DNA from: Desulfovibrio sp.
Lineage (GTDB): Bacteria > Desulfobacterota > Desulfovibrionia > Desulfovibrionales > Desulfovibrionaceae
Length of the DNA: 12,382 nucleotides
Direction of reading: 5' to 3'
NCBI GenBank assembly: GCA_020217165.1
Contig: JAIWOE010000114.1
Location: 1 to 12,382, forward strand
Position numbers and translations under genes: made by a program
The notes under the pieces: model-generated
What the model was told of the DNA's origin: nothing
The model's input: the letters and a program-made list of their open reading frames with translations, nothing else
Databases searched by the model: none
Part shown: positions 4,886-12,340 of the stretch, piece by piece
Layout: the number at the start of each line of letters is the position of its first letter
Numbering within the stretch: the first letter of the stretch is position 1

Positions 4886-5443
4886 TCATGGCCCTCCCCG
4901 TCCGCCCCCCGCCGTGGCCGCCAAGCGGGCAAAGCGGCGGTGGTTCAGGTGACACACGGCCACGGCCATGGCGTCCGTGGCGTCCGTGGCATAGGGGGTG
5001 GTGTCCGGCAGGCCCAGGATGCGCCGGACCATGAAGGCCACCTGTTCCTTTTCCGCCCGGCCGGTACCCACCAGGGTCTTTTTGACCACCGACGGCTCAT
5101 AGCTGGCCAGGGGCACGGCGTGCATGCCGCAGGCAGCCAGGATGGCGCCCCGGGCCTGCCCCAGCACCAGGGCCGAGGCCGCATTCTTGGCGGTAAAAAT
5201 CTCTTCCATGGCCGCTTCGTCCGGGGTGTACTGGTCGATGAGGTCGGCGATCCCGCGGTACAACCGGGCCATGCGCTGGGCCATGGGCAGGGCCGGATCT
5301 GGTCGCAGGGTGCCAGCCTGCACCAGGCTGACCGTGCCCGAGCGTTCCTCCACCAGGGCGTACCCGGCCACGCGGCTGCCGGGATCGATCCCCAGGACCC
5401 GAACACCCGCCTCGCCCGTCGGCTCCGGCTTCTTCACCGTCAT
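4886..5443 (-). CDS. ruvC: crossover junction endodeoxyribonuclease RuvC
   Basis: RuvC is the dimeric, metal-dependent resolvase that nicks Holliday junctions symmetrically. The 185-residue product has the RNase H-like fold pattern: GIDPGSR with D20 first, AMEEIFTAKN with E80 second, and TDATDAMAVAVCH with D154 and D157, so all four acidic catalytic residues are in place. Further family blocks are SALVLGQARGAIL (90-102) and GTGRAEKEQV (126-135). The ATG at 5443 overlaps the stop of the radical SAM gene by four bases (ATGA) and has GAGGAAG seven bases upstream; an in-frame ATG at 5545 would add 34 low-complexity residues and is rejected. The C-terminus (AATAGGGRGGP) is a short Gly-rich tail. 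Assignment firm. Confidence 0.97.
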   Translation of the reverse strand: MTVKKPEPTGEAGVRVLGIDPGSRVAGYALVEERSGTVSLVQAGTLRPDPALPMAQRMARLYRGIADLIDQYTPDEAAMEEIFTAKNAASALVLGQARGAILAACGMHAVPLASYEPSVVKKTLVGTGRAEKEQVAFMVRRILGLPDTTPYATDATDAMAVAVCHLNHRRFARLAATAGGGRGGP

Positions 5444-6789
5444 GCCGCTTCCTCGGTGGTAGCCGGCGGCCCTTCCGTTCCCAGGCAGGACACAAGGCCC
5501 AGGGGCCAGGGACAATGGCCGCAGGGCACCCCGCCCCCCAGGCAATCACAGGCGTCGCCGTAGGCAGCCTGGATCAGCTCGCTGCAGGGGGAGGCAGCGC
5601 AGTCATAGCACCGCGGGGAGGCGTTGGCCAGGGCATCGGCCCGGAAGGTGCGCGCTGGGGCGCTGTTCCAGAGAGTCTGCATGGAGTCCTGGTGTTCCTG
5701 GCCAAGCCGCCCCAGAAAGGTGGCGGCAATGCGCTTGGCCCTGCCCTGCTCCGCCGTCACATGCGTATGCCAGAGAAAATGACAGGGAGCGACATTGCCA
5801 TGGGCATCCAGGCAGGCGATGTGCCGGGCCAGAAAGGGGCATTGGCGCTCGTCCGCCGCCGCCAGGGAAGGCAGATGCAACCGCAGGCCATGCCGCCGGG
5901 CCCGTTCCCGGGTCCGTGCGAACAGGGCTGGCAATTCCTGCATGGCTTCGTCCGCTGCCCACTGGGTCAGGGATTTGAGATTGAAGGGCACACCGCGGCG
6001 GCGGGCCTCCTCCCGCAGGGCGGTCTCCACGGCCTGCAGCCGGCGGTCCTCCTCGGACAAGGTCAGCCGGAATTTCAGCTGCAGCCTGGGGGCCTCAAGG
6101 ATATTGAGGCCCTGGGCGCGGGCCTCGGCCTCGGCCTGCCGGAAGAGGGTCACGGCAGCAGCGGCATTGGGATTGGAGAGGGACTCCCCGGCCCACAGCG
6201 CCGCAGGTGGCAGCAGATGACTCACCAGCACAAAGTCCGCGCCCCGGCCTCCGGCCCAGTCCACCAGGGCAGGCAGGGCCCGGCGGTTGCTGCGCATGAG
6301 CACGCATTCCACCCCCAGTTCCATGGGGCGGCCAGCCCGCGCCCCAGCCTCCCGAAACCAGGCGCACGCCTGTTCGATGGCCGGCAGAAAGGAACCGCCA
6401 TGCAGGGGCTGGCCCGGGGTGGTATCCAGGGCATCCACGGAAAAACAGACCTGATCCAGTCCGGCGGTTGCCAGGCGGACGGCGAGGTCCGGCGTGGCCA
6501 ACAGGCCGTTGGTCTGCAGGCCAATGCGAGCTGTGGCTGGCAGACGGGCGCGCAGCCAGGCCACGATGTCCACCAACTGCGGATGCAGCAGGGGTTCGCC
6601 CAGGCCGGCCATGCTCACCCGCTCCACGCCGGGCAACACGTCCTCCAGGGCGGCCAGGGTTTCGAAGGAAAGATCGCCATCGGTCATGACACAGCCCGGC
6701 GTCTGACGCGGGCACATGCCGCAGGCGAGGTTGCAACGGGAGGTGGGCTCGATGAGCAACACCCGGGGGGTCTCGAGGGAAACAGTCAT
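5440..6789 (-). CDS. radical SAM enzyme with cysteine-rich SPASM-like C-terminus
   Basis: The 449-residue protein has the radical SAM cluster motif CNLACGMC (C19, C23, C26), which binds the [4Fe-4S] cluster that cleaves S-adenosylmethionine, followed by GLGEPLLHP (62-70, the GEP segment) and LQTNGLLA (91-98). The C-terminal third holds eleven cysteines: C317, C326, C336, C394, C397, C402, C414, C416, C423, C426 and C435, including CLDAHGNVAPC and CYDCAASPC, resembling a SPASM region that binds auxiliary Fe-S clusters. Such proteins modify peptides or help mature metalloenzymes; the substrate is not evident, and no small precursor peptide gene is seen beside it. From memory, related proteins are often labelled putative metalloenzyme maturases. 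The start at 6789 has GGAG seven bases upstream and leads straight into the conserved core; an ATG at 6843 is less likely. Its stop overlaps the ruvC start, so it is the first gene of the tightly packed ruv cluster. Confidence 0.85.
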   Translation of the reverse strand: MTVSLETPRVLLIEPTSRCNLACGMCPRQTPGCVMTDGDLSFETLAALEDVLPGVERVSMAGLGEPLLHPQLVDIVAWLRARLPATARIGLQTNGLLATPDLAVRLATAGLDQVCFSVDALDTTPGQPLHGGSFLPAIEQACAWFREAGARAGRPMELGVECVLMRSNRRALPALVDWAGGRGADFVLVSHLLPPAALWAGESLSNPNAAAAVTLFRQAEAEARAQGLNILEAPRLQLKFRLTLSEEDRRLQAVETALREEARRRGVPFNLKSLTQWAADEAMQELPALFARTRERARRHGLRLHLPSLAAADERQCPFLARHIACLDAHGNVAPCHFLWHTHVTAEQGRAKRIAATFLGRLGQEHQDSMQTLWNSAPARTFRADALANASPRCYDCAASPCSELIQAAYGDACDCLGGGVPCGHCPWPLGLVSCLGTEGPPATTEEAA

Positions 6790-6850
6790 GGGCGCTCCGG
6801 CGGACACGAGGGGAAGCAGCCGCACCCGGTGTCGCGTCGCCATACGAAGC

Positions 6851-7557: not shown

Positions 7558-7914
7558 TTAATCGATCAGGGGCGGCGCCAAGGCTTCCAGCTCGGCCAAG
7601 ACATCCTCCAATTGATCCGAGAGTGCATTGGCCTCCCCCGGCTTCCAGTCGGCCAGGGCGTTTTCCAGGCTGCGCTTGCGGCTCTTGGCCACGGCCAGCT
7701 TCGGTTCCAGGGTTGCCTTCATGTCCTTCGGATGGTTTCCAAAGAGCAGGGCATCGCCAAGGGCATCCACCAGTTCCAGTACGCCCTTCTTGGGCTGGGG
7801 GCCGGCGGCGGGCACCTCCCCCCAGGCCAGATGATGCAGCTTCGGCCAGACTTTTTCAATGTCTTCAGGACGATAGGTATACGCGCTGACGATGACCTGC
7901 AGGTGCTTCCCCAT
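7558..7914 (-). CDS. 118-residue protein of unknown function
   Basis: I do not recognise the family. The start codon overlaps the stop of the carrier protein gene by one base (TGATG), with GGAG ten bases upstream, so translation is probably coupled to the carboxylase genes. An in-frame alternative at 7932 would add six residues. The N-terminal 35 residues (MGKHLQVIVSAYTYRPEDI, WPKLHHLAWGE) look like a small alpha/beta start. The middle is rich in Leu/Ala/Asp (GVLELVDALGDALLFGN, 44-60), and the C-terminal half (65-112) is charged and probably helical, with a leucine-rich end (QLEDVLAELEALAPPL). There is no signal peptide, membrane segment or cysteine. Its position, directly after the biotin-type carrier, makes a carboxylase-associated or regulatory role possible, but that is inference. 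The next gene, ssb, is 39 bases away. Confidence 0.8.
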   Translation of the reverse strand: MGKHLQVIVSAYTYRPEDIEKVWPKLHHLAWGEVPAAGPQPKKGVLELVDALGDALLFGNHPKDMKATLEPKLAVAKSRKRSLENALADWKPGEANALSDQLEDVLAELEALAPPLID

Positions 7915-8564
7915 CAGCCCTGCTCCTGCCACTCGGTCTGCACCCGGACCACCACATCCTCAATGAGGGGAAGTTGCTCCGGCGGACACACGCCCACCAG
8001 GGGGTCACCGGCGTCCACGTTCTGGTTGTGCTGGAAATAGACCGCATAGATGACGCCTTCCGGCCCCTGGTAGCTCACCGGGGCCTCGCGCTTCATGCGG
8101 GACATGATGAACAGCTCCAGCCCCTCATACACGGTGACGGAGCGCGGCCCCGAGGCCTTGATCTTCAGGTCCACTTCCGGGGTAAAGTAGTACTTGGCCC
8201 GGTCCGGCGCCCGGAACAGGTGCAGGGCTTGCTTGAGGATGATCTGCTGCACTTCATCCTTGGAAAGATAGTGCCGGATGCGGGCGATGGGCGTGCCAGC
8301 CTCCACAAAGGTGCCGGCCAGGTCCGTGGCCAGCCAGGCCAGATCCCCGGCCTGTGAGGCCATGATGGGCTTGGCGTTGCGTTCCCGCTCCAGGGTGGCC
8401 AGGATAGTGCCGGGCACTTCCTTCCAGGTGCCGCGGGGGCCGTACACCTTGGCGCCGGGGGAGATGTCCGGGAAGCTGACCACCCCGGTGTGGGGGGCCA
8501 GAATATCCATTTCCTCAAAGGGAGAGGCTTTGATCTCTTCCAGGAGGGCGGTGACGTCGAGCAT
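7914..8564 (-). CDS. biotinyl/lipoyl-like carrier protein of the acyl-CoA carboxylase, no AMKM motif
   Basis: The position right behind the carboxyltransferase, with TAGGAGG overlapping that gene's stop and the ATG 12 bases later, suggests the carrier subunit. The 216 residues show two biotinyl/lipoyl-like halves. The first (about 20-96) runs ILAPHTGVVSF, VPGTILATLERERN, ASQAGDLAWLATDL, GTFVEAGTPIARI; at the place of the biotinylated Lys (11 residues before the second-half Gly, G73) stands R62. The second (about 128-195) contains IMSRMKREAP and GPEGVIYAVYFQHNQNVDAGDPLVGV; here the comparable position is R159 with K158 beside it. A canonical AMKM is therefore missing. K158 is the best candidate for biotin if the protein is modified; otherwise it may be a structural subunit. 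Helices join the two halves (100-118). Family naming as biotin attachment protein rests on fold-like pattern and context. Confidence 0.72.
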   Translation of the reverse strand: MLDVTALLEEIKASPFEEMDILAPHTGVVSFPDISPGAKVYGPRGTWKEVPGTILATLERERNAKPIMASQAGDLAWLATDLAGTFVEAGTPIARIRHYLSKDEVQQIILKQALHLFRAPDRAKYYFTPEVDLKIKASGPRSVTVYEGLELFIMSRMKREAPVSYQGPEGVIYAVYFQHNQNVDAGDPLVGVCPPEQLPLIEDVVVRVQTEWQEQG

Positions 8565-8576
8565 GGTCCTTTCCTC

Positions 8577-10841
8577 CTAGCGATAGTACACGTTGCGGCC
8601 GCCCATGGTGAGCAGGGCCTGGATGCAGTTGGCGCGCAGTTCCCGGCGGTCCCAGATGCCTTGGATGTGCCCGCGGGAGAGAGCGCGGTAGGCGCGGTGG
8701 TAATCTGGCGGAATATCCATCCCGGTGGTTTCCTTGATGACCCCCGGCCCGGCGAAGCCGATGTTGGCCGAGCGCACGCTGAACTGGTAGGGCGAGCAGC
8801 CCAGGAAGCTGGCCACGGGGCCGGCATAGGAATTGGTGTCGTAGATGACCATGTAGAGCCCGCCGGCATCGATGTACCGCCGCACGGCCATGGTGCAACG
8901 CGGCATCTGGATGACGCCGTTGGTGCCTTCCTGGATGCGGATGCCGGCCGTGCCGTGCACGTAGGCGATGAAGGGGAAGCGCTTCTTCAGGGCCCGTTCG
9001 GCAGCCTGGAAGAACTTTTCGCCTTCGGCCGCGCCCACGGAACCACCGCGGAAGGTGCCCGTGAGCATGGCCACCACCACGCGGGTATTGTCGATGCGCG
9101 CTTCAAAGGTGCGGCAGGCGCTCTTCATGCCCGTGCGCTGTTTGGCTTCGTCCAGCTTCTTGTCCAGACCGGGATAGCCCAGGGGGTTGCCAGCCTCGAT
9201 TTCCGCATTGAATTCGTAGATGGACCCGGCATCGCAAATGTTGTTGACGAACCACTGGGGTTCCATGGGGAAATGATGCCCGCAGTAGCTGCAGACACCG
9301 GCATGGTCGCCAAAGAGGTCCGGGGCCCAAAGGTCCAGACAGCCGTGGGTGGTGGCATTGGGGCAGGTGATGGCCTTGTCTTCCTTGGCTCTGGGGCTCA
9401 CCCACCGCCAGCCGCTGCCGGCGGCCGGGTCTTCCCAGTAGGACAGTTCGGTCAGTTCCTTGGCCTTGCCGTGGTTCAGGGCCGGCTTGGAGTTGAACAT
9501 GCCTCGCAGGGCGCGCCAGGGCGACAGGAGCTTGCCCACCACGTACTGCACTTCCGCGGCCACTTCTTCCAGGGTGTGGACCACCACTTTTTGATGCTTG
9601 CGCAGGAAGTCGTATTTGAAAAAGGAATAGACGCTCCAGCCCACGTCATGCACGCTGGCCATGAATTTTTCCTTGGCTGGCCGCGAATCCCGGGAGGCCC
9701 AACGGCTCATACGGGCATGGCGGGCGTAGCGCCGGGCCACCAGGTCTTCCTTGGCGGCGGCGTTGAGGCCCCAGCGGACATAGAAGTTCTCGGTGGTGTA
9801 GGCGCCCTGCCTGCGGCGGCGTTCCATGCGGCGCACGCCCATGGCCCGGAAGAACTTGATCCCCTTGAATTTGAGGAACACCTCGTCGGTGGCGGCCACC
9901 ACTTCCTGGCGCAGCAATTTGAAGAAGTCGTAATGCTCGGGCCGTGCGCCCAAGGGCGGTTCCTGGATGATGCGATCAATGTAGCCAAAGCGCAGGTTGT
10001 CTTCGGCGGTGATTTTCAGGTTCTTGGCGCAGGATTCGATGAGTTCCGGCGTGGCTCGCTGGCCTTGACGCAGCCGGCCTTCGATGGCCGCGCCGCCTTC
10101 GGGGGAGATGACCGAGTAATAGCCGTGGGAGAGCATGAGCCGCATGTCTGCCAGGGCAATGGCCTCGGCCCCGCCGGAGCCGCCTTCGGAAAACACGGCC
10201 ACCACCGGCACCTTGAGGGCCGCCATCTCGTACAGATTCTTGGCGATCTGCTGGGCTGCGCCGGGATAGTCTTCCACGGGATAGGCGCCGGGAGTGAACA
10301 CGTAGGTGTGGATGGGGATGTTCTCCGTCTCGGCCACCTTCATGTAATGCAAGGCCTTGGCGTTGCCCCAGGGCTTGACCGAGCCGCCGTTGCGGAACTC
10401 CTGCCCGTGGCCCTTTTCCTGCCCGATGACCATGACCGGCTGGTGCACGGCCTTGCCGCGGGAGCGGCGGGTGATGTAGGCCCGGGCGATGACGATGGAG
10501 GGATCGATGGAGTATTCGTCCTGCCCGCCAATTTCCGTATAGTTGTCGTAGACGTTTTCCAGGATGTCCTTGAGACAGATGCGCTGGGGGTGCCGCACGA
10601 TGCGCACCCGGTCCATGGGCGTGAGCTCCTGTTCGAGCTGCTTTTCGGCAAAGTCAAAGAGCTCTTCCAGGGTTTCCAGGGCCTTGACTTTGCGCTCCTG
10701 GGCCCAGTTTTTTTCCAGGGACTGGATTTCCGCCAGTTCGGAAGCCAGGAGGCGGGAGTGATCGTTTTCGCGGTGACCGAGGATGTCCTGAATGTAGCGC
10801 AGGCGCTCGGCCAGAATCTGCAGTTTCTTGTCGGTATCCAT
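8577..10841 (-). CDS. accA/accD: acetyl-CoA (acyl-CoA) carboxylase carboxyltransferase, AccA-AccD fusion
   Basis: The enzyme moves the carboxyl group from carboxybiotin to an acyl-CoA, most likely acetyl-CoA to give malonyl-CoA for fatty acid synthesis. The 754 residues contain an AccA-like half (about 35-300): a helical start, GGQDEYSIDPSIVIA, VIGQEKG (138-144), TPGAYPVEDYPGAAQQIAK (183-201), SEGGSGGAEAIA (218-229) and YSVISPEGGAAI (242-253). Residues 300-488 are a basic linker without recognisable domain. The AccD-like half (about 490-754) begins with a zinc ribbon (C493, C501, C517, C520), then GGSVGAAEGE (599-608), IRIQEGTNGVIQM (634-646) and ANIGFAGPGVI (692-702). The halves are in alpha-beta order, opposite to PccB-type proteins. 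In the AccD half the usual GGARMQEG reads AGIRIQEG. The ATG at 10841 has only a weak ribosome binding site (AGAG). It lies 65 bases past the biotin carboxylase gene and 12 before the carrier gene. Confidence 0.9.
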   Translation of the reverse strand: MDTDKKLQILAERLRYIQDILGHRENDHSRLLASELAEIQSLEKNWAQERKVKALETLEELFDFAEKQLEQELTPMDRVRIVRHPQRICLKDILENVYDNYTEIGGQDEYSIDPSIVIARAYITRRSRGKAVHQPVMVIGQEKGHGQEFRNGGSVKPWGNAKALHYMKVAETENIPIHTYVFTPGAYPVEDYPGAAQQIAKNLYEMAALKVPVVAVFSEGGSGGAEAIALADMRLMLSHGYYSVISPEGGAAIEGRLRQGQRATPELIESCAKNLKITAEDNLRFGYIDRIIQEPPLGARPEHYDFFKLLRQEVVAATDEVFLKFKGIKFFRAMGVRRMERRRRQGAYTTENFYVRWGLNAAAKEDLVARRYARHARMSRWASRDSRPAKEKFMASVHDVGWSVYSFFKYDFLRKHQKVVVHTLEEVAAEVQYVVGKLLSPWRALRGMFNSKPALNHGKAKELTELSYWEDPAAGSGWRWVSPRAKEDKAITCPNATTHGCLDLWAPDLFGDHAGVCSYCGHHFPMEPQWFVNNICDAGSIYEFNAEIEAGNPLGYPGLDKKLDEAKQRTGMKSACRTFEARIDNTRVVVAMLTGTFRGGSVGAAEGEKFFQAAERALKKRFPFIAYVHGTAGIRIQEGTNGVIQMPRCTMAVRRYIDAGGLYMVIYDTNSYAGPVASFLGCSPYQFSVRSANIGFAGPGVIKETTGMDIPPDYHRAYRALSRGHIQGIWDRRELRANCIQALLTMGGRNVYYR

Positions 10842-10906: not shown

Positions 10907-12340
10907 CTAGAATTCCAGGATGGTGTCTGTCCTGGCATGCAGGAACGCCAGGTTGGACTGCATGGAGCCGCCGGCGTTATCCCGGCCTTCCAGCACCGTG
11001 TGTTGGAGGAATTCCTTGCCCCGGGCCTTGACCTCGGCCAGGTCCTTGCCCCAGATGATGGCCAGGGCGAGGTTGGGGTCGTACTCCGTGGGGATGTCGT
11101 ACGGGGTCTCGGGATCGTACCAGGTGGGCACCTGCGTGTGCAGGTGCACCCAATCCCGCGTGGGGGTCTCGAAGCGGGTGATGCGGCCCACCCAGGGCGT
11201 GAACTTGTTCTCCGGGCATTCCGCGATGATGCGGTACTCGATGCCCACACCCTCAAAGATGATGTCGTCCTGGGTGTAGCCCATGGGCTCGCCCAGACCC
11301 ATGCGGATCTGCTCGGCGATGATGTTCACGTCCGCCATGGAGCCGTCCTTCTTGCGAATGCGGCTGATGGTGGCGGAGACGCCGTTTTCCACCTGAATAC
11401 GGGTGTTTACTTCCATGAGGAAGGGGTTGCCAGCGGGGGTGACAATCCACTCCCAGGTGCCCACGTTGTCGTATTTCACTTCCCGGGCCATGGTCAGGGA
11501 ATGCTGGGTGATCTCGTCCAGCACCTTGGCGGCGTCGAAGTTGTACGTGATGGTGGAGGGATCGAACCCCGGGGCCACCTCGATGCGCTTTTGCCGCCCC
11601 GTGGACTGCACGGTGCAGTTGCGCGTGCCAAAGTGGGCCACGTGGCCGTGGCGGTCGGCCGCCACCTGCACTTCCAGGTGGTTGAAGGTGTGCACCCGCT
11701 GCTCGATGAGCACGCCTTCATCCCCGAACTGACGTTTGGCATAGTTGCGAATGCGGCGGTACACGGTGCGGAAGAGGTCGATATCATGGACTTCTTCAAT
11801 GCCCATGCCCCCGCCCCCTGCCGAGGCCTTCACCAGCACCATGGGCCGCTCGATGCCCTGCTCTGCCTGGAAGGCGAACAGGCTCTCGGCAATCTCCTCG
11901 GCTTCCAGTTCGTCGTAGATGGGCTTGTCGGATCCCGGCACCGTGGGTACGCCCAGGGCGCGGGCCAGACGTTTGGTGTTGATCTTGTCCCCCAGCTCGC
12001 GGATCACCCGCCAGGACGGCCCGATGAACGCCAGCTTGCGGGTGCGTTCCGTCACCCGGCGGGCGAAACGGAAGTCCTCGGCAAAAAATCCGTAGCCCGG
12101 GTGTACGGCGGTGGCGCCGGTGGCGTCGGCCACGGCCATGAGCTCGTTGGCGTCGGTGTACGAGCTGATGCGGCACACGGCGTTGTCCCCGCCCAGCTTG
12201 CGGGCCAGGGCCACGTGCCCGCAGTGGACGTCCACCGGGGTATAGACGCAAACAAAGTCCACCCCGAGCTTTTTGCAGGATTCAATGATCCTGACGGCGA
12301 TTTCCCCACGATTGGCCACAAGGACCTTGTGCGTATCCAC
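10907..12340 (-). CDS. accC: biotin carboxylase-like subunit of acyl-CoA carboxylase
   Basis: Biotin carboxylase uses ATP and bicarbonate to carboxylate carrier-bound biotin. The 477 residues match the ATP-grasp fold: KVLVANRGEIAVRII (5-19), HPGYGFFAE (80-88), LGDKINTKRLARALGVPTVPGSD (116-138), the glycine-rich loop KASAGGGGMGI (171-181), NHLEVQVAAD (220-229), EVNTRIQVE (310-318) and IEYRIIAE (367-374). Counterparts of E. coli E276, E288, R292, E296 and R338 are E297, E310, R314, E318 and R370. The loop that in E. coli reads QRRHQK is QSTGRQK (245-251): one residue longer, with Arg in place of His236, while Lys238 is kept as K251. HPVTE after the last motif becomes NGVSA. The start is GTG at 12340, directly preceded by an in-frame TAG, with GGAG about ten bases upstream. 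No biotin carrier domain is attached. First gene of the carboxylase block within this window. Confidence 0.88.
   Translation of the reverse strand: MDTHKVLVANRGEIAVRIIESCKKLGVDFVCVYTPVDVHCGHVALARKLGGDNAVCRISSYTDANELMAVADATGATAVHPGYGFFAEDFRFARRVTERTRKLAFIGPSWRVIRELGDKINTKRLARALGVPTVPGSDKPIYDELEAEEIAESLFAFQAEQGIERPMVLVKASAGGGGMGIEEVHDIDLFRTVYRRIRNYAKRQFGDEGVLIEQRVHTFNHLEVQVAADRHGHVAHFGTRNCTVQSTGRQKRIEVAPGFDPSTITYNFDAAKVLDEITQHSLTMAREVKYDNVGTWEWIVTPAGNPFLMEVNTRIQVENGVSATISRIRKKDGSMADVNIIAEQIRMGLGEPMGYTQDDIIFEGVGIEYRIIAECPENKFTPWVGRITRFETPTRDWVHLHTQVPTWYDPETPYDIPTEYDPNLALAIIWGKDLAEVKARGKEFLQHTVLEGRDNAGGSMQSNLAFLHARTDTILEF

Follow-up and report, generated by a model that had tools for sequence, protein, structure and literature searches.

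In heteromeric acetyl-CoA carboxylase of the Escherichia coli type, the biotin carboxyl carrier protein (BCCP, or AccB) is a biotinyl barrel (4hr7_G, 1bdo) with a lysine after a methionine in a turn, and it is encoded with biotin carboxylase (BC) and carboxyltransferase (CT). The biotinylated lysine is placed in AMKM by PMC2964542 and in E-X-M-K-M by PMC11077971. ALKV is given for Aquifex in PMC3048393, which also describes the lysine of the Sulfolobus AMKS site as not biotinylated by E. coli BirA, and according to PMC2753649, mutating the residue before the lysine compromises biotinylation of yeast pyruvate carboxylase. By these accounts, the AMKM or E-X-M-K-M site is usual but not universal among biotin carriers. 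Here we describe a carrier gene in a 12,382-nucleotide stretch of Desulfovibrio sp. DNA (assembly GCA_020217165.1, contig JAIWOE010000114.1), which we call the window. The gene (positions 7914 to 8564, minus strand) is an intact open reading frame (ORF) for a 216-residue protein with two biotinyl-like barrels and a C-terminal helix, and it is the third gene of a conserved trio encoding BC, a fused CT, and the carrier. We conclude that this protein is very probably the BCCP, biotinylated at K158 in its second barrel, of the cell's single acetyl-CoA carboxylase, and that its first barrel is degenerate.

The carrier has the same barrel as AccB of the E. coli type, the same order of methionine and lysine in a turn, and the same enzyme partners. 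It differs from AccB in having MKR[E/D] rather than EAMKM, a second barrel at the N terminus, and a helix after the barrel, and in not being recognized by TIGR00531, the canonical AccB model. We found no match of TIGR00531 to the carrier protein at E values up to 1 and none at the locus at E values up to 10. Genome searches with this model miss the carrier. The Biotin_lipoyl family PF00364 matches residues 144 to 190 with 29.8 bits against a cut-off of 22.1, and in a six-frame genome search the carrier scored 21.6 bits, just below that cut-off. Among solved structures, the best sequence match is P. horikoshii BCCP (the methylmalonyl-CoA decarboxylase gamma chain; 2d5d, 5gu8), the lysine of which aligns with K158; unlike the window's carrier, it is a single barrel with EAMKM. 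Another bacterial enzyme of the heteromeric kind with its subunits divided in an unusual way is the acetyl-CoA carboxylase of Chloroflexus aurantiacus, as presented in PMC11077971. It joins BC to BCCP, has its CT subunits apart, and keeps E-X-M-K-M, whereas in the window it is the two CT halves that are joined, and the carrier stands alone.

The nearest relative among the matches listed is a Megalodesulfovibrio gigas protein with 94% identity over its full length. NCBI already names some relatives in Desulfovibrio "biotin attachment protein"; these are orthologues (67 to 70% identity among the named ones listed), and their annotation is a name only. A search of openly licensed papers, judged by title and the start of the abstract, returned no study of an acetyl-CoA carboxylase or its carrier from Desulfovibrio or Desulfobacterota.

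Position of the lysine in the second barrel

An earlier, sequence-only reading of this DNA had noted that the protein lacks AMKM and shows two biotinyl/lipoyl-like halves. Both points held. Neither AMKM nor E-X-M-K-M occurs in the carrier, where the local sequence is MSRMKREA, and the predicted structure (AlphaFold, mean pLDDT [predicted local distance difference test] 90.1) together with fold searches gave a biotinyl-like fold for barrel 1 (residues 16 to 99; 8268 to 8519, minus strand) and for barrel 2 (residues 115 to 193; 7986 to 8222, minus strand), the putative biotin-bearing domain. The fold search with the whole model was crowded by matches to barrel 1, so we made a separate model of barrel 2 and searched with that. 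The top matches of barrel 2 were biotinyl domains, and lipoyl domains were also among the structure matches. Matches to RNA polymerase, BesA, and CusB were set aside as common-barrel matches.

In two AlphaFold models, one of the whole protein and one of barrel 2 alone, strands 150 to 156 and 159 to 164 flank a two-residue turn, M157-K158. The carrier therefore has a lysine directly after a methionine in an exposed hairpin turn. When a profile of the family was aligned with P. horikoshii BCCP, srMKreaplkysGpeGv was matched to eaMKmeneip-sprdGv and a single gap fell behind the motif (E 0.016, a weak match); in this alignment K158 pairs with the lysine of EAMKM. M157-K158-R159 lies at 8088 to 8096, and the codon of K158, the candidate biotinylation site, at 8091 to 8093 (both minus strand). 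The retained methionine before the lysine fits the motif tolerance reported in the papers cited above, and the arginine after it is unusual.

The sequence-only reading had placed arginine at both expected lysine positions. This was right for R62 in the first half, which is the second residue of the turn E61-R62 between strands 54 to 60 and 63 to 68 of barrel 1. For the second half it was off by one: we rejected R159 as the lysine equivalent, since the profile alignment and the strand boundaries in both models give K158. Counting back from G170 without a gap arrives at R159 because the hairpin holds one extra residue. The loop of this hairpin varies among relatives from the phylum, with one further residue in 9 of 71 alignment rows (L145-L153) and the glycine missing in 15 of 71, and counting back from the glycine to locate the lysine fails where loop length varies. 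The apparent loss of both lysines thus shrinks to a single loss, at a tip whose sequence varies across the family.

The final strand of barrel 2 ends at residue 193, which is 35 residues after K158. A distance of 35 residues is the figure given in PMC3048393 for biotinyl domains reported so far, and we counted this agreement in favor of a biotin carrier. The helix behind the strand (residues 195 to 211 in the model; 7932 to 7982, minus strand) is extra, lying past the point where a biotinyl domain usually ends.

Conservation of K158 and of the first barrel's tip

We compared the carrier with its relatives in two alignments. The close-relative alignment has 177 rows with redundancy kept: the query and 120 listed of 1050 matches (121 proteins) and 56 named loci. 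The phylum alignment has 71 rows from the 70 genomes with a carrier in a sample of 395 genomes of the phylum, Desulfobacterota, our own genome being counted twice. Among the close relatives, R156, M157, K158, R159, and E160 are invariant in all 177 rows and S155 in 176, and the only other invariant lysine is K134. Across the phylum, none of the 71 rows departs from M157, K158, and R159, and K158 is the sole invariant lysine, while position 155 is S in 58, T in 9, Y in 3, and A in 1, and position 156 is L in 30, R in 25, and F in 16. MKR was found in all 121 listed proteins and in all 83 relatives recovered with the lowest-scoring member, and SRMKRE in all 22 family loci fetched in addition. 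As judged from these alignments, the conservation of M157-K158-R159 exceeds chance.

The tip of barrel 1, R60-E61-R62-N63 (8376 to 8387, minus strand), holds no conserved lysine. Position 62 is R in 144, H in 22, Q in 3, G, K, and N in 2 each, and S and C in 1 each of the 177 close-relative rows, and R in 41, K in 16, G in 10, N in 3, and H in 1 of the phylum rows. R60 and N63 flank this varying residue and are invariant in 71 of 71 phylum rows. Their invariance in the alignment suggests that the tip may retain a binding role other than biotin attachment.

In-frame stops were flagged in 4 of the 70 carrier matches (G029, G129, G228, G218).

Other carriers and alternative explanations

We found no second acetyl-CoA carboxylase carrier in our own genome or in G409, a congeneric genome with 99% completeness. 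In our own genome, three PF00364 matches exceeded the cut-off: one to the C terminus of pyruvate carboxylase (SIMKQEK), one to a protein that by eye is GcvH-like, and one, partial, to a 409-residue frame; TIGR00531 had no match over its cut-off. The three PF00364 matches in G409 (E up to 0.01) are a 1301-residue frame with SIMKQEK, which has the length of pyruvate carboxylase, a 128-residue GcvH-like frame, and the carrier. The window's BC and CT gave no Biotin_lipoyl match at E values up to 1, in line with the earlier claim that neither contains a further carrier domain. A scan of our own genome for ATGAARATG gave 89 matches counting any frame.

The carrier is present in 186 of 199 family genomes and in 147 of the 149 good ones, and none of the 199 has TIGR00531 over cut-off. 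In the phylum sample, 70 genomes have the carrier, 86 have TIGR00531 over cut-off, and 239 have neither; no genome has both (Fisher p 9e-9, with kinship ignored and genomes treated as independent). One carrier genome (G145) has a TIGR00531 match below cut-off. Two good family genomes, G418 and G486 (99% and 91% complete), gave no carrier match at E values up to 1e-10, and G449 gave two.

Several observations weigh against a biotinylated K158 serving a single acetyl-CoA carboxylase. The profile matches to the PDB are weak (E 0.016-0.03), the arginine after the lysine and the loss of glutamate at -3 deviate from E-X-M-K-M, and the invariance of K158 shows that the lysine matters and does not alone show biotin. 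Our own genome is 87% complete, and its only biotin-ligase-like frame scores 81 bits, just below the TIGR00121 cut-off of 83.1. Small EAMKM or EAMKL frames occur besides the carrier in G145, G414, and G528, and EAMKM or ESMKM occurs in frames of 640 to 715 residues in 10 of 21 carrier genomes examined (30 loci fetched). These additional frames, together with the missing AMKM and the absence of a conserved lysine from barrel 1, would fit the view, raised in the sequence-only reading, that the protein is a structural or scaffold subunit that is never biotinylated and that a separate AMKM carrier encoded elsewhere serves the enzyme. We consider this very unlikely. TIGR00531 stays below cut-off in our own genome, the family genomes, and the carrier genomes of the phylum sample alike, and besides the carrier, PF00364 matches only the pyruvate carboxylase-like and GcvH-like frames in G409. 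As seen by eye, the second, EAMKM-type carriers of G414 (L185) and G528 (L186) adjoin another BC frame, with an AMP-ligase-like frame beside one and a CT-like frame beside the other, and the long EAMKM or ESMKM frames presumably encode subunits of pyruvate carboxylase or oxaloacetate decarboxylase. Carrier genomes thus do contain canonical biotin sites, but none that we saw belongs to the carrier of this enzyme. A scaffold would also leave unexplained why the sole invariant lysine occupies the biotin turn.

Barrel 1 might instead be a second biotin site in those relatives that have lysine at position 62. This is less probable again: the preceding residue is E or Q, not M, the position is also occupied by R, G, N, or H, and the window itself has R62. 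Least probable of all is that K158 bears a lipoyl group or another modification in place of biotin. Biotinyl and lipoyl domains do share a fold, and lipoyl domains were among the structure matches. However, the D-K-A motif that PMC2753649 gives for lipoylation is absent from the carrier, the top fold matches of barrel 2 are biotinyl domains, and the conserved neighbors encode BC and CT. We therefore favor biotin on K158 in the IMSRMKRE context, the other possibility raised in the sequence-only reading, because the alignment, the predicted structure, the invariance, and the lack of another carrier all support it.

Partner enzymes, proposed mechanism, and neighboring genes

The genes upstream of the carrier on the same strand encode BC and the fused CT, so that the partners of a carrier are adjacent and in conserved order. 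The order BC, CT, carrier was found in 40 of 40 phylum loci with flanks; we detected CT in 55 of the 56 named loci and BC in 52 of them, with the misses on short or cut loci. The fused CT (754 residues; 8577 to 10841, minus strand) has an AccA-like half followed by an AccD-like half (PF03255 and PF01039), and its best PDB matches are 2f9i A and B. It is the only frame in our own genome to match PF01039. BC (477 residues; 10907 to 12340, minus strand; PF00289, PF02786, PF02785) is divergent, scoring 328 bits against a cut-off of 597. An alignment of 91 BC rows, one of which is a pyruvate carboxylase, retains GGGGMGI, HlEvQ, QKR.E, EVNtRIQVEn, and E.R..AE, which we take, from E. coli BC, to hold the ATP-binding, catalytic, and biotin-contact residues. 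Two frames in our own genome match the BC C-terminal domain: this one and a pyruvate carboxylase of 1241 residues.

We infer the biotin on K158, the substrate, and the role of barrel 1, and propose the following mechanism. Within barrel 2, K158 of the beta-turn M157-K158 would bear the biotin, as part of an attachment motif x-x-M-K-R-[E/D] (the first x mostly S or T) that would replace E-x-M-K-M. CO2 would be loaded onto this biotin by the BC encoded upstream and transferred to acetyl-CoA by the fused AccA-AccD CT, yielding malonyl-CoA. Barrel 1 would be a degenerate biotinyl domain retained to serve in structure or docking. The tandem arrangement suggests that a biotinyl domain can persist as a structural part when it is inactive. 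Malonyl-CoA supply in the window's family seems to depend on this enzyme, and probably does so in other families of the phylum.

As a conserved site, MKR offers a variant of biotin ligase specificity that can be tested. The single PF03099 match in our own genome is the 435-residue ligase-like frame mentioned above (C300, 898-2202); its presence speaks for a biotinylated carrier, and from its score this ligase may be divergent too. Pyruvate carboxylase frames of the family (L001, which is C79 of our own genome, L171-L176, and L212-L214) have SIMKQEK or SVMKQEK, not AMKM. As these enzymes also depart from AMKM, variant sites are probably accepted by ligases of this clade. A bolder proposal, which we hold to be possible but rather unlikely, is that of a branch of acetyl-CoA carboxylases, widespread in this phylum, with a tandem carrier. 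In this branch, a co-adapted, divergent ligase would read the MKR[E/D] barrel, and the preceding pseudo-biotinyl barrel, with its invariant R60 and N63, would be a permanent placeholder on the docking site of BC or CT. If this were true, the MKR[E/D] site would be orthogonal to AMKM-specific ligases.

Downstream of the carrier lie a 124-residue ORF that follows it directly (7558 to 7932, minus strand), a gene for a single-strand binding protein, and, after the latter, a gene for a radical SAM/SPASM protein (5440 to 6843, minus strand). A tblastn search (E up to 1e-6) found no relatives of the radical SAM/SPASM protein in 96 loci, many of which are too short to reach it. The 124-residue protein has no family match reaching its cut-off. 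Relatives of it follow the carrier in many of the named loci, but a search of the 40 phylum loci found none there.
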